From: Pseudomonadota bacterium
GTDB lineage: Bacteria; Pseudomonadota; Alphaproteobacteria; Rhizobiales; Aestuariivirgaceae
Assembly: GCA_963205315.1 (NCBI GenBank)
Contig: CAUJIO010000081.1
Coordinates: 1-52,344 of the forward strand
Direction of reading: 5' to 3'
DNA length: 52,344 nucleotides
Shown: positions 36,732 to 40,640 of the stretch, piece after piece
Layout of the letters: each line of letters begins with the position of its first letter
How positions within the stretch are numbered: position 1 is the stretch's first letter
Made by a program: the position numbers and the translations under genes
Notes under the pieces: model-generated
What the model saw: only the letters and a program-made list of their open reading frames with translations
Database searches by the model: none
What the model was told of the DNA's origin: nothing

Positions 36732-37149
36732 CCTCCCGCTTCTGCCACTCGACGACGTAAGTGTTGATCGAACTGTCGAACGGATCGACTGTTGGCGCCG
36801 TTATGATGCGAAGATTTTTGCCATCAATCTCGAAGAAGCGGACAAGGTCTGTCCGGGTCCAGACTTCGTTCCACGACACGTCAACACAGTGTGTCACCTT
36901 CGTTCCCTCGACCACATAGGTTCCGGAATAGGCAACCATAGTCTGGAACAGCTGCGCCTTGTCACCGTCAGGCATATCCATGGAGCTATGTCGTGGCCTG
37001 TCATCGCCAACCAGGATGGCGTGAACGATGCCATCCGCGGTATAGGTCAGCCGGCCGTGCGGGTTCTCGCCATATAACATGTTCCGGCTACCATCGTGGC
37101 CCTGGCGATAAATGGCGACAAGCTCCCAGCTTCCGACGACGGAGTTCAT
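36721..37149 (-). CDS. Lipocalin-like domain protein
   Basis: A 142-residue soluble protein. It begins with VVGSWELVAIYRQ, followed by alternating strands such as GRLTYTADGIVHAIL and GTYVVEGTKVTHCVDVSW. This is the pattern of the lipocalin-like family PF13924, small beta-barrels thought to bind hydrophobic ligands, and no signal peptide is seen. A G-rich stretch precedes the ATG. Ligand and role are unknown. Its 3' end overlaps the convergent DUF599 gene by 11 bases. The 147 bases to its right, up to the next stop, hold nothing I recognise. Confidence 0.72.
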   Translation of the reverse strand: MNSVVGSWELVAIYRQGHDGSRNMLYGENPHGRLTYTADGIVHAILVGDDRPRHSSMDMPDGDKAQLFQTMVAYSGTYVVEGTKVTHCVDVSWNEVWTRTDLVRFFEIDGKNLRIITAPTVDPFDSSINTYVVEWQKREVTA

Positions 37150-37296
37150 GATGCCCCCTGCTTCTATCCAGAAATTGTGAGGTTATCATGTACTCTTGCT
37201 GATGGCTATTCACCGCCGCGTGCCGCCGGGCAATAGGTTGCTCGTGCAAGTTAGCCCGCGAGCGGTTTGGTCGCTGCGCTGCCAGCGTGACGGCCG

Positions 37297-37563
37297 CTAG
37301 TTACCAGGGTCACTGCCGTGGAGACAGGCGGCGGGGGCGACGGTCTCGGGGTAAGTTGAAGCGAAATCCTCCCAGTCAATCCTGACATAGTCGCGGGAAT
37401 AGCCGATATCGGCGCGAGTCGCCGGGTCGACGGAACGGAGGAGGACGGCCTGCCAGTGGTCATGCCAGGCTTTCGCAAGATGCCGCAAAGCAATCCTGAG
37501 AGACCAGGAGAGAGCGAGGAGCGGCGAAGTGGAATATCTGTGGTCATCGAGTGCGATGGTCAT
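37297..37563 (-). CDS. Small DUF1127-like protein
   Basis: An 88-residue basic protein. A hydrophobic/basic helix (LRIALRHLAKAWHDHW) is followed by VDPATRADIGYSRDYVRIDW, which resembles the DUF1127 core with its ADIGxSR motif. Small DUF1127 proteins of Alphaproteobacteria are involved in RNA turnover, phosphate metabolism and stress responses; whether this longer, C-terminally extended version does so is unknown. AGAAGGAGAAA before the ATG at 37561-37563 is a strong ribosome binding site. It diverges from the LysR gene at 37689. Confidence 0.6.
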   Translation of the reverse strand: MTIALDDHRYSTSPLLALSWSLRIALRHLAKAWHDHWQAVLLRSVDPATRADIGYSRDYVRIDWEDFASTYPETVAPAACLHGSDPGN

Positions 37564-37688
37564 GGCGTTTCTCCTTCTCTGGTTGATGAAAATTACCATG
37601 AGGAGCGGCAACGCGGAGCCCACCAAACTAGAAAGAGCTTATGCGTATCTATTTGCATCGACGCTTTGAGTAGACTAACTTCGCTAAC

Positions 37689-38576
37689 ATGGACTGGGAC
37701 GACATCCGGGTGTTTGTCGAGGTCGCGGAGGCGCGAAGCCTGACTCTGGCGGCACGGCATACCGGGCTTAGCCAGCCAACAATTAGCCGCCGCCTGAAAT
37801 CGATGGAGGATGCGGTCGGCGGGTCCCTGTTCGAACGATATCCGAACCGGATAGAACTGACGCCACTCGGCAAGGATCTGATGGAGCCGGCGCTGGGCAT
37901 GAAGTCCGCGGCACTCAGCCTGCGGCGGCGGGCCGAGGTTTCGACGCGAGCGCGGCCGCAGACGGTAAGGGTAAGTACCACCATGTCTGTGTCGCAGTTC
38001 CTGTGCCAGCACCTGACCGAGCTTTCACAACTGGCGGTCCGGCATGGCGGCGAACTGCATATCGAGCCGACTCGCGAATTGCTGAACTTCGCCTTCCGCC
38101 AGGCTGACCTTGCAGTGCGCCTGAGGAGCATCCCCGAACATGGACCTGCCAAGGTTAGACGGATTGGCCGAATTTCGACCGCGGTTTACGGGCGCCGCGA
38201 TCTCGGGGCACAATGTGGTGTCATCGGCCTCACCCATAACCGGCCCCCGCCCCAACCCGAATGGCTTGACCGCTATGCCGAGGCACGAAAACTAAGAGTG
38301 GTGGCGCGGCTTGGCGAATTCTTCCAGCGCTATGCAGCGATCAAGAGTGGACTAGGCGTCAGCCTGCTGCCCTGCTTCCTCGGAGATGCCGATCAGAGCC
38401 TCGAAAGGCTTGGGGAGGTGCCGCGCGAACTCGACGAGGATGCGTTCTTGCTGTTTCACCCGGAGATGTCGGATCTTCCGCCCGTGCGGGCGGTGGCGGA
38501 TGGCATCGCGGCGCTTTTCAATCGCTTCGCTCCGGTACTCTGCGGCGATGTTCAGGCAGTCCAACCGCCAGCATAG
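37689..38576 (+). CDS. LysR-family transcriptional regulator
   Basis: A 295-residue LysR regulator with the helix-turn-helix in residues 5-60, including ARHTGLSQPTISRRLKSME. The effector domain is shorter and more divergent than that of the other LysR protein in this window. No clear ribosome binding site precedes the ATG, so translation may be weak or leaderless. Its 3' end overlaps the end of the convergent halohydrin dehalogenase-like gene by 25 bases, so transcription of the two would interfere. It may control that gene pair, although LysR targets are more often divergent (inference). Confidence 0.85.
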   Translation: MDWDDIRVFVEVAEARSLTLAARHTGLSQPTISRRLKSMEDAVGGSLFERYPNRIELTPLGKDLMEPALGMKSAALSLRRRAEVSTRARPQTVRVSTTMSVSQFLCQHLTELSQLAVRHGGELHIEPTRELLNFAFRQADLAVRLRSIPEHGPAKVRRIGRISTAVYGRRDLGAQCGVIGLTHNRPPPQPEWLDRYAEARKLRVVARLGEFFQRYAAIKSGLGVSLLPCFLGDADQSLERLGEVPRELDEDAFLLFHPEMSDLPPVRAVADGIAALFNRFAPVLCGDVQAVQPPA

Positions 38577-39226
38577 GGAAAGATCTGGCCGCACAAGAAG
38601 TCACTCTCATCGCTGGCGAGGAACAGCAGGAACGCTGCTGCTTCGCGGCCGGTGGACAGCCGTCCGGCCGGGACGTCGAGAAGCCGTGTTTGGAGTTCCG
38701 GACTGCCAACGACCTCAGGCGGAAAGTAAGTCGGATTTTCGACAAAGTTTTGTCCCGTGGCGTTGACCTGGACATTATGTGGTGCAACTTCGACACCCAG
38801 CGAACGGACATAGGCATGTTGCGCGCCGCGCGCTGCGCCATAGCAACTGCGCCGTGGCGTGCCCCGCAACGCGGCGGCGCTTCCGACAACGATGATCTTA
38901 CCGCCCCTCCGCTCGATCATCTGTGGAAGAACGGCACGGCAAAGCCGATGCAGGGGATGGACGAGCCGGTCGAAGACCTCCGCCCACTGAGCATCGGTGG
39001 TCTCGTGGGCAAGTGCCCGCGGATTTGGGATCGACAGATTGGCGACCAGCACGTCGATATGGCCCGCTTCGGCGATCAGCTCCGAGGCCGCCGCAAGAGG
39101 GCGCAGGTCACGCCGGTCGGCGATCACCTCTGCGCCTTCCTCAGTGAAAAGGTCCGTGACGGCGGGCCCCATGAAATCCCCAGCGTCGGTGACGACGATA
39201 CGTTTTCCGGAAAGCCTCTGTCCCAT
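38552..39226 (-). CDS. Halohydrin dehalogenase-like SDR-fold protein, copy 2
   Basis: A 224-residue short-chain-dehydrogenase-fold protein that departs from dehydrogenases at both functional sites. The usual GxxxGxG cofactor loop is replaced by TDAGDFMG (Thr13, Phe18, Gly20), matching T-x4-F/Y-x-G. The catalytic site reads Ser116, then 12 residues, Tyr129, then Arg133, matching S-x12-Y-x3-R. These two motifs define halohydrin dehalogenases, which release halide from vicinal halohydrins to give epoxides without NAD(P). The chosen ATG at 39224-39226 shares one base with the stop of copy 1 (TGATG); the frame is open further upstream but only across copy 1. Enzymatic activity is inferred from motifs only. 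Confidence 0.78.
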   Translation of the reverse strand: MGQRLSGKRIVVTDAGDFMGPAVTDLFTEEGAEVIADRRDLRPLAAASELIAEAGHIDVLVANLSIPNPRALAHETTDAQWAEVFDRLVHPLHRLCRAVLPQMIERRGGKIIVVGSAAALRGTPRRSCYGAARGAQHAYVRSLGVEVAPHNVQVNATGQNFVENPTYFPPEVVGSPELQTRLLDVPAGRLSTGREAAAFLLFLASDESDFLCGQIFPYAGGWTA

Positions 39227-39897
39227 CACACGGCCCATCCACCCGAAAATGCGAACGTCTGTCCGCTGACGAAGTCGCTTTCGGCACTTGCAAGATAAAG
39301 CGCCAGCGCCGCGCTCTCCCAACCTTGAGCAACTCGTCCGGCCGGAACCGCCTTCAGGCGTTCGGCGAAATCGGCCGCATTGATGATCTCCGGGCTGTAG
39401 GAGGTGGGGTTGGATACCCAGTTCTGGGCGATGGCATTGACATTGACGCCCTGGCCCGCAGTCTCAATTCCGACGTTCCTGACATAGGCGAGTTGGGCGC
39501 CTCGCGCCGCGCTGTAGGCCGCGCGGACAGGCGTGCCGCGCAAGGCGTTGGCGCTTCCCATCACCACGATTTTGCCGGACCGGCGCTCGAGCATTTGCGG
39601 CAACACCGCCCGCACCAACCTGTGCAGTGGGTGGACCATCGCGTCGAACATGGCCGCCCACTCCGCATCTCCCGTGTCGACAACCGCATGGCGTCGATTG
39701 CGTTCCATGAGGTTGACAACCAGAATATCGACACGGCCTGCGCGGCGTATCAAATCGTCGGCCGCTTGCGGCCGCGTCAGATCGGATTCATCTGCGGTGA
39801 CGGCCGCACCTTCTTCGGCAAACAGCTCGCAGACCGCCGGCCCCATAAAATCGCCAGCCTGGGTGACGAGGGCATTCCTGTTGGCAAACCGCTTCAT
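39226..39897 (-). CDS. Halohydrin dehalogenase-like SDR-fold protein, copy 1
   Basis: A 223-residue paralogue of the downstream gene. TQAGDFMG supplies Thr12, Phe17 and Gly19 of the halide-pocket motif T-x4-F-x-G. Ser115, Tyr128 and Arg132 form S-x12-Y-x3-R, so arginine stands where dehydrogenases have lysine. The end ASAESDFVSGQTFAFSGGWAV matches the family's C-terminal region and is nearly parallel in copy 2. It is shorter than the well-known HheC (about 254 residues). There is no ribosome binding site before the ATG at 39895-39897; instead a TATCAT lies 7 bases upstream, suggesting a leaderless message. The tandem pair could form hetero-oligomers or have split specificity. Confidence 0.8.
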   Translation of the reverse strand: MKRFANRNALVTQAGDFMGPAVCELFAEEGAAVTADESDLTRPQAADDLIRRAGRVDILVVNLMERNRRHAVVDTGDAEWAAMFDAMVHPLHRLVRAVLPQMLERRSGKIVVMGSANALRGTPVRAAYSAARGAQLAYVRNVGIETAGQGVNVNAIAQNWVSNPTSYSPEIINAADFAERLKAVPAGRVAQGWESAALALYLASAESDFVSGQTFAFSGGWAV

Positions 39898-39903
39898 ATC
39901 GAC

Positions 39904-39930
39904 ATGATAGCAAAGCTACCACGCTTGCAA
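39904..39930 (-). promoter_or_regulatory. Candidate promoter giving a leaderless message for the halohydrin dehalogenase-like pair
   Basis: On the minus strand TTGCAA (39930-39925) and TATCAT (39909-39904) are separated by 15 bases. Transcription starting 7 bases after the -10 box would begin exactly at the A of the ATG at 39897. Spacing is shorter than ideal, so this is tentative. Confidence 0.3.
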
Positions 39931-39989
39931 CCGCATCAATAGTGAATGAGCCTATTCGGCTTCGTTGGCCTCGACCAGTGTCTCAGGTG

Positions 39990-40640
39990 TCACGAACCGA
40001 GAGAAGCAAGCCCTGCGGCCTCTGCGGCAAGCTTCTCGATACCGGCCCAGTCCTTGGCCTCGATCAGTCTCTTCGGTGCCATCCACGAGCCGCCGATGGT
40101 GATGACGTTCGACAGCTTGAGATAGGCGGGAGCCTTTTCCGGCGTGATGCCGCCGGTCGGGCAGAAGCGTACCTGGGGCAGCGGCGAGGCAAGTGACGAA
40201 AGGTAGGCGGTGCCGCCGGCCGGTTCGGCTGGAAAGAATTTCTGGATGGCATAGCCCCATTCGAGCAGCGCCATGCATTCGGACGCGGTGACGCCGCCGG
40301 GCAGCAGCGCGATGTCGTAATCCTCGGCGGATTTCAGCAGCGTTTCGGTGGAGCCGGGCGAGACGGCGAACTTGCAGCCGAGCTTGTAGCTGTCCTGCAA
40401 TTGCGCCGGAGTCAGCACGGTGCCGGAGCCGACGATGGCGCCTTCGACTTCGGCGACAATGGCACGGATGCAGTCCATGGCCTTCGGCGTCCTGAGGGTT
40501 ATTTCGAGAACCGGCAGTCCGCCCTTCACCAGGGCCCGGGCCAGCGGCACAGCGTCTTCGACGTTGTCGATCACCATCACCGGCACCACAGGCGCTAGTT
40601 TCAGTGCGGCCTCGAGTCCGCCTTGTGTCTCACGTGTCAT
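39990..40640 (-). CDS. eda: 2-keto-3-deoxy-6-phosphogluconate aldolase
   Basis: A 216-residue class I aldolase that splits KDPG into pyruvate and glyceraldehyde 3-phosphate, the last step of the Entner-Doudoroff pathway. The Schiff-base lysine is Lys134 in AIQKFFPAE and the catalytic glutamate Glu46 in VLEITLRT. The phosphate-binding region CPTGGI is near 165-170. The ATG at 40638-40640 lies one base after the edd stop and has GAGGGTG upstream, so eda is translated with edd. The open frame extends upstream but only in antisense-like sequence inside edd. Confidence 0.93.

Follow-up and report, generated by a model that had tools for sequence, protein, structure and literature searches.

A tandem pair of halohydrin dehalogenase-like genes, one with serine at a typically aromatic pocket position, in an alphaproteobacterial genome

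What do two overlapping genes encode in an Aestuariivirgaceae bacterium (Pseudomonadota, Alphaproteobacteria, Rhizobiales) if automatic annotation would see in them only generic oxidoreductases, and what could such a pair be for? The genes lie in a stretch of 52,344 nucleotides (contig CAUJIO010000081.1 of assembly GCA_963205315.1), which is called the window here. The original prediction placed a tandem pair of genes similar to halohydrin dehalogenases (HHDHs) at 38552..39897, and this interval proved to be correct: gene A (39226..39897, 223 residues) and gene B (38552..39226, 224 residues) are both open frames on the minus strand. The predicted one-base overlap was also seen, as TGATG, in which one base is common to the stop codon TGA of A and the start codon ATG of B. 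The numbering of B used here takes the ATG at 39226 as its start, and a longer reading of the B frame is also possible. We consider it probable that A and B are horizontally acquired, duplicated, cofactor-free HHDH-type lyases of the HheB/HheD lineage, of which B would be canonical and A would have a changed pocket.

Several observations support the assignment of A and B to the B/D-type HHDHs (HheD2, HheD8 and HheB) and not to the NAD(P)-dependent dehydrogenases. First, the motifs T-x4-F/Y-x-G and S-x12-Y-x3-R, which define HHDHs according to an excerpt of PMC4989007, can be read in both proteins at the predicted residues, namely T12-x4-F17-x-G19 with Ser115/Tyr128/Arg132 in A and T13-x4-F18-x-G20 with Ser116/Tyr129/Arg133 in B. 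The first motif (TQAGDFMG in A, TDAGDFMG in B) replaces the glycine loop of the short-chain dehydrogenases/reductases (SDRs), the second stands where SDRs have Tyr-x3-Lys, and the classical NAD(P) signature of SDRs (a T-G-x3-G-x-G loop and Y-x3-K) is absent from both. The same excerpt reports that this motif pair was used to select 37 new HHDHs and that activity was confirmed for the 19 chosen. Second, the other SDRs of the genome itself (4.67 Mb in 112 contigs) served as a control. The genome gave 49 matches to A, including A and B themselves; 40 of the other 47 were fetched, three had no alignable frame, and 37 were scored. The first motif (T-x4-[FY]-x-G) was found in 0/37 and S-x12-Y-x3-R in 0/37, and S-x12-Y-x3-K was found in 28/37, so that a chance match to the motifs is excluded in practice. 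Third, HHDHs are the closest sequences in the PDB by about 100 bits. For A, the scores were 211.6 (7b73), 200.8 (8xxb) and 197.7 bits (HheB, 5b12), the next listed match scoring 92; for B, they were 254.5, 238 and 219.1 bits, with the next at 116.4 (6a41), which is itself named a dehalogenase.

The predicted folds and the trees agree with these matches. AlphaFold2 models of A and B reached a moderate mean predicted local distance difference test (pLDDT) score of 78.8 and 77.5, respectively, with poor active-site loops, and in Foldseek searches with either model the chains of HheD2 (7b73), HheD8 (8xxb, named as a triple mutant) and HheB took all of the top nine places. Structure prediction had been proposed as a check of the pocket; it gave an SDR-like Rossmann fold with solved HHDHs as its nearest matches, but the pocket is not visible in the model of A, where the loop falls below pLDDT 50. 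Trees were built from 38 rows, from 35 rows (the partial HheC, L006 and L012 dropped) and from 68 rows (the same three dropped, and the truncated relatives L145 and L146 left out). HheC thus stands, only in part, in the 38-row tree, and HheG-type references are in none of the trees; rows L004 and L120 are one protein, the references 8xxb and 5b12 each carry three engineered positions, and the subtype labels of relatives (B/D-type, A/C-type) were assigned from tree position. Placement among NAD-binding SDRs, the outcome that had been named as speaking against the prediction, was looked for in these trees; A and B fall within the HHDH clade, apart from the SDRs of their own genome, with support of 100/98 in the 38-, 35- and 68-row trees. 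Motifs, PDB scores, tree position and best fold matches agree on membership in the HHDH family (EC 4.5.1.-). The expectation that automatic annotation would call both proteins plain SDRs was likewise borne out, as Pfam and NCBIfam gave generic SDR models only, with NCBIfam scores far under the cut-off, and a plasmid-borne relative (L035) is annotated as 'SDR family oxidoreductase'.

The feature that sets A apart from its relatives is Ser166. At this position Tyr is found in 55/55 other B/D-type rows. Of nine distant HHDH rows, two of which are PDB references (6a41 and HheC), eight have Tyr and HheC has Phe; of nine later relatives eight have Tyr, the stretch compared in the ninth not reaching the site. 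By direct numbering the column corresponds to Phe186 of HheC, and Ser132, Tyr145, Arg149, Pro175 and Leu178 of HheC fall as expected. Close by, Ser168 of A stands where Pro is found in 51/55 rows. A keeps Tyr167 (HheC 187) and Phe17 (HheC 12), and B keeps all three aromatic residues, including Tyr167-Phe168; an aromatic residue is therefore present at both HheC-186 and HheC-187 in B, and at 187 only in A. According to an excerpt of PMC5292711, F12, Y186 and Y187 are believed to contact anions through their rings, and positions 186 and 187 vary only between Tyr and Phe. This aromatic pair is a typical HHDH trait and not a defining motif. The best reading of these residues is that A has a remodelled anion pocket and B a canonical one. 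Since the pocket aromatic is lost and the triad is kept in A, the leaving group, the nucleophile or the halide affinity of A would be shifted, and it is most likely in one of these that A differs from B. A further idea, that Arg125 of A and Arg126 of B point to an anionic substrate, was weakened. Arg is found at this position, that of Leu142 in HheC, in 0/55 other rows, but it occurs one position earlier in 45/55, and an excerpt of PMC5292711 judges Leu142 to be rather distant from the ligand.

The kinship of A and B to each other and to the known types was also estimated. The two proteins share 57% identity, and their codon differences by position (0.34/0.27/0.63) fit purifying selection. In the best trees, A and B stand outside a joint clade of HheB-type and HheD-type proteins, and this clade without A and B has support of 95/88 in the 35-row tree (9 + 13 rows) and 97/90 in the 68-row tree (9 + 46 rows). 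In a tree restricted to B/D-type proteins (57 rows), A and B split from the rest with 100/91. Sisterhood of A and B was not rejected by approximately unbiased (AU) tests, with a p-AU of 0.165 in the 35-row set and of 0.18 and 0.341 in tests beside the 57-row tree. Moreover, A and B have eight rare residues in common. For 225 control pairs of 50-60% identity the median was 1 and the highest count 7; this control is rough because the rows differ in their number of close kin. The end branch of A is longer than that of B (0.8 vs 0.39 in the 68-row tree). These results support, short of proof, a deep position of A and B next to the HheB and HheD types, as sisters and excluded from the D type. The likeliest history, though not a proven one, is an old tandem duplication on a lineage next to those two types.

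The acquisition of the pair is indicated by the site in which it lies. Between a DUF599 gene and eda (KDPG, 2-keto-3-deoxy-6-phosphogluconate, aldolase; 39990..40640, minus strand) there are 3258 bp (36732..39989) with five genes: a lipocalin-like gene, a small open frame, a LysR-family gene, B and A. DUF599 and eda adjoin, at about 40-210 bp by tblastn ends, in 4 of the 8 congeners whose eda region was fetched (G014, G036, G035 and G026), and among those with the empty site is G014, the nearest congener by eda score. The stretch fetched for the other four (G034, G001, G013 and G012) gave no match to DUF599, so that the site could not be compared there. A, B, LysR and the lipocalin-like gene have a third-position G+C of 0.67-0.71, and eda, edd and prfC one of 0.77-0.82. 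Horizontal gain of this 3.3-kb stretch would be the simplest account, and a foreign origin is also indicated by the lack of matches in other sampled members of the genus, family and order (given below). When mobile-element ends were looked for at the insert, no convincing terminal repeat was found.

Some results weigh against this view of the pair, in whole or in part. The best trees with outgroups do not pair A and B as sisters, and in the 35-row set AU tests reject neither A and B with the D-type (0.249), nor B alone with the D-type (0.124), nor A and B with HheB-type rows (0.0655). The 68-row tree gave a long-branch warning that includes A. The rare residues common to B and L039 number 7 and those common to A and HheB number 6, and the figure of 8 for A and B is not far above these. 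Regarding the pocket, when the 60 columns kept in at least 93% of the 55 other B/D-type rows were compared, A departed from 9 and B from 7, so that B leaves conserved columns nearly as often as A. The model loop of A that carries Ser166 (residues 159-167) is below pLDDT 50, and the effect of Ser166 is for this reason not visible in the fold model. Finally, an epoxide hydrolase like that encoded on the Novosphingobium plasmid pSA2 is not in the window, the rest of the genome not having been searched for it or for other dehalogenases.

Comparison with the closest known systems shows what is familiar in the pair and what is not. The D-type HHDHs (HheD2, 7b73; HheD8, 8xxb) are the best match of A and B in both sequence and fold; 7b73 is 50-51% identical to A and 54% to B, and the D-type proteins have both motifs and belong to the same length class. 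In contrast to them, A and B are a tandem pair, A is without the pocket Tyr, and both stand outside the D group in the best trees (95/88 and 97/90), although AU testing does not reject nesting within it (p-AU 0.249). HheB of Corynebacterium sp. N-1074 (4zd6, 5b12) has 227 residues, both motifs and 46-49% identity to A and B in the fold searches; its first motif has Tyr where A and B have Phe, its pocket loop differs, and grouping of A and B with the HheB clade gave a p-AU of 0.0655. HheC of Agrobacterium radiobacter AD1, whose Ser132/Tyr145/Arg149 map to Ser115/Tyr128/Arg132 of A, is more distant: its pocket loop has an insert of three residues, and Phe186-Tyr187 stand in place of Ser166-Tyr167 of A. 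The hheC gene and a gene for an epoxide hydrolase belong to one operon, as an excerpt of PMC11976700 reports, whereas the window is without one like the Novosphingobium enzyme. The original prediction also described A and B as shorter than classic members, which holds against the chains of HheC (254) and HheA (244) but not against those of HheB; with HheB chains at 227 residues, the length of A and B is normal for the B/D-type branch. L-2-keto-3-deoxyfuconate 4-dehydrogenase and FabG have the Rossmann fold in common with A and B, at about 24-31% identity in the fold searches. These two enzymes bind NAD(P)H and use Tyr-x3-Lys.

How the two enzymes would work can be proposed from knowledge of the family. 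An excerpt of PMC4989007 describes HHDH chemistry in which Ser orients the hydroxyl, Tyr acts as the base, Arg tunes Tyr, and a halide pocket takes the place of the nucleotide site. By analogy, the Ser of the triad would hold the substrate hydroxyl, and Tyr, its pKa lowered by Arg, would accept the proton. The alkoxide would then displace the neighbouring halide and close the epoxide, and the halide would exit into a pocket standing where NAD(P) sits in ordinary SDRs, NAD itself presumably not being bound. In the reverse reaction, small anions would open the epoxide. Regarding the origin of the pair, the tandem duplication would be old and would precede arrival in the present genome, and the two genes would have come as a 3.3-kb block together with the LysR regulator. 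B, with its canonical pocket, would have everything needed for catalysis. A, on the longer branch, would have lost the aromatic residue of HheC Phe186 and kept the triad, the first motif and Tyr167.

Other explanations of the pair should be considered, and the one that survives best is that A has moved off halides, with Ser166 shifting it to another small anion or a different leaving group, while B stays a dehalogenase. The uniqueness of the residue, with Tyr in 55/55 B/D-type rows, Tyr or Phe in 9/9 distant rows and Ser in A alone, argues for it, as do Ser168 nearby and the longer end branch; however, Tyr167 and Phe17 of the first motif remain, some anion binding would be expected of them, and one pocket substitution does not make a new reaction. 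This explanation appears rather unlikely, if worth keeping in mind. It is also unlikely that, on a lineage separate from subtypes B and D, A and B are a specialised pair in which B would free the halide and A would use a different anion or enter a mixed tetramer with B.

We are more doubtful of an A2B2 hetero-tetramer, in which B would be the working subunit and A a structural or substrate-shaping one with a weakened halide site. A one-base gene overlap, as between A and B, would favour coupled translation. HHDHs are tetramers (PMC4989007, in excerpt), the halide site of A differs from that of the family, and in helix alpha-E (A 89-105) the two proteins reach 88% identity, compared with means of 67% (A) and 66% (B) against the 55 relatives. 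However, this value is no higher than the best ones of A and of B with other proteins (0.88 each), helix alpha-F has no such excess (0.64 vs means of 0.68 and 0.66), and the whole triad and the first motif are intact in A, unlike in a dead subunit. In the open-licence papers searched no co-mention of halohydrin dehalogenase and heterotetramer was found. Action of A and B on successive substrates, which the original prediction had named beside a hetero-oligomer, is likewise a conjecture.

It is improbable that A is a decaying duplicate and that B alone matters. The longer branch of A and its departure from 9/60 conserved columns, Ser166 included, could be read in this way, but its frame is open, its triad and first motif are intact, A and B differ roughly twice as much at third codon positions as at the first and second, and B is also off at 7 of the same 60 columns. 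Least probable by far are ordinary NAD(P)-dependent SDR dehydrogenases that carry the motifs by chance, for which only the generic SDR models of NCBIfam and Pfam could be cited and which the replaced glycine-rich loop and Tyr-x3-Lys, the PDB scores, the own-genome control, the trees and the fold matches rule out. We return to the HHDH-type lyases with a canonical B and a pocket-changed A as the probable reading.

The occurrence of relatives was examined at several taxonomic levels. Of 37 members of the genus and 69 of the family (E 1e-35), and of 397 sampled members of the order (E 1e-38, with at most about 7 candidates scored per genome), the genome described here was the sole match. With this genome counted in both, 17/385 genomes matched in the class sample and 4/398 in the phylum sample. 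Relatives are not rare in some groups, with matches in 38/299 genomes of one family of the phylum (f236, E 1e-45) and in 10/28 genomes of a small-genome order, that of G771. In each genome with a match, the present one excepted, a single match passed the threshold. Likewise, no second HHDH copy was found in the fetched stretch at any of 55 other HHDH loci, a count that leaves out L006 and the distant L025-L031, in which L004 and L120 are the same locus, and that includes several loci near a contig end (L145, L147 and L148 among them) where one side is uncheckable. A second copy was also absent from 7 distant and 9 further loci, with fetched flanks of mostly about 1.5 kb, and no tandem pair was found around G535 (5 genomes), G582 (1 genome) or G771 (28 genomes). 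A contig search for closer relatives gave 8 loci, all with at most 53% identity to A, and a plasmid search gave one record.

Some of these relatives deserve description in their own right. L018 and L189-L197 are single-copy HHDHs in an order with genomes of 1.1-2.0 Mb, several of them incomplete, and the presence of HHDHs in such a small-genome order may be a sign of a basic physiological role, as opposed to pollutant breakdown. L044 (1435-2145) branches deeply among the HHDHs, apart from the HheB, HheD and A/B lineages; it has the first motif TCADIYMG and a short C-terminal extension. L006 (2672-3469), on a contig titled as a Nitrososphaerales metagenome-assembled genome, is a related SDR in which both HHDH motifs are missing and the pocket-loop stretch is kept; it is either a sister family or a binning error. 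On the Novosphingobium resinovorum plasmid pSA2, which is typed as conjugative, an HheB-like gene lies directly downstream of an epoxide hydrolase gene (L035, 8805-10678), and its product, annotated as an SDR only, has a first motif that starts with Ser and not Thr.

The remaining genes of the insert and the wider neighbourhood give the setting of the pair. The LysR-family regulator (37689..38576, plus strand) is convergent with B, with a tail-to-tail overlap of 25 bp. Divergent from it are the small open frame (37297..37626, minus strand), which encodes 109 residues from TTG or 88 from 37563 and has no Pfam match (E 0.001) and no NCBIfam match (E 1e-20), and the gene for a lipocalin-like domain protein (PF13924; 36721..37149, minus strand, 142 residues), whose frame extends 11 bp into the end of DUF599. 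On the other side, eda lies 92 bp upstream of A on the same strand. No promoter-like or terminator-like site was found on the minus strand of this gap, so that read-through transcription from eda to A is possible. A halo-organic gene neighbourhood was not found among the 25 window proteins given to Pfam, and the scanned genes are mostly of sugar-catabolic, amino-acid and housekeeping types. Entner-Doudoroff or glucose genes lie near 4/55 HHDH loci elsewhere, within the stretch fetched for each, as edd/eda (L046 and L047) or zwf (L136 and L139, of one genus), and L047 also has genes for 2-keto-3-deoxy-galactonokinase and a second aldolase. A rough binomial estimate with assumed background rates, for a pattern noticed after the fact, gave 0.001-0.018 for at least 3/55 loci with such genes, and L128, to which L047 is closest in the 68-row tree, does not show this pattern. 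The link between HHDHs and the Entner-Doudoroff pathway is a lead only, and possibly due to chance.

In conclusion, the kind of enzyme found here is known, and what is distinct is the tandem pair, its separate branch and the non-aromatic residue at position 186 of one member. HHDHs serve as catalysts and their natural role is unsettled. According to excerpts of the literature, other physiological functions of HHDHs cannot be excluded (PMC4989007), and the compounds tested are probably not the natural substrates of HheC (PMC11976700). An inserted pair with one canonical member and one with a natural substitution at the anion site offers a built-in comparison, which asks whether residue 186 sets the leaving or attacking anion and what the pair is for. 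If the nucleophile site is indeed changed, A would be a natural HHDH with an anion site of another class. With A, B and the LysR gene in one insert, the three could act as a transferable module, which, if this holds, could serve a specific natural halohydrin or epoxide.

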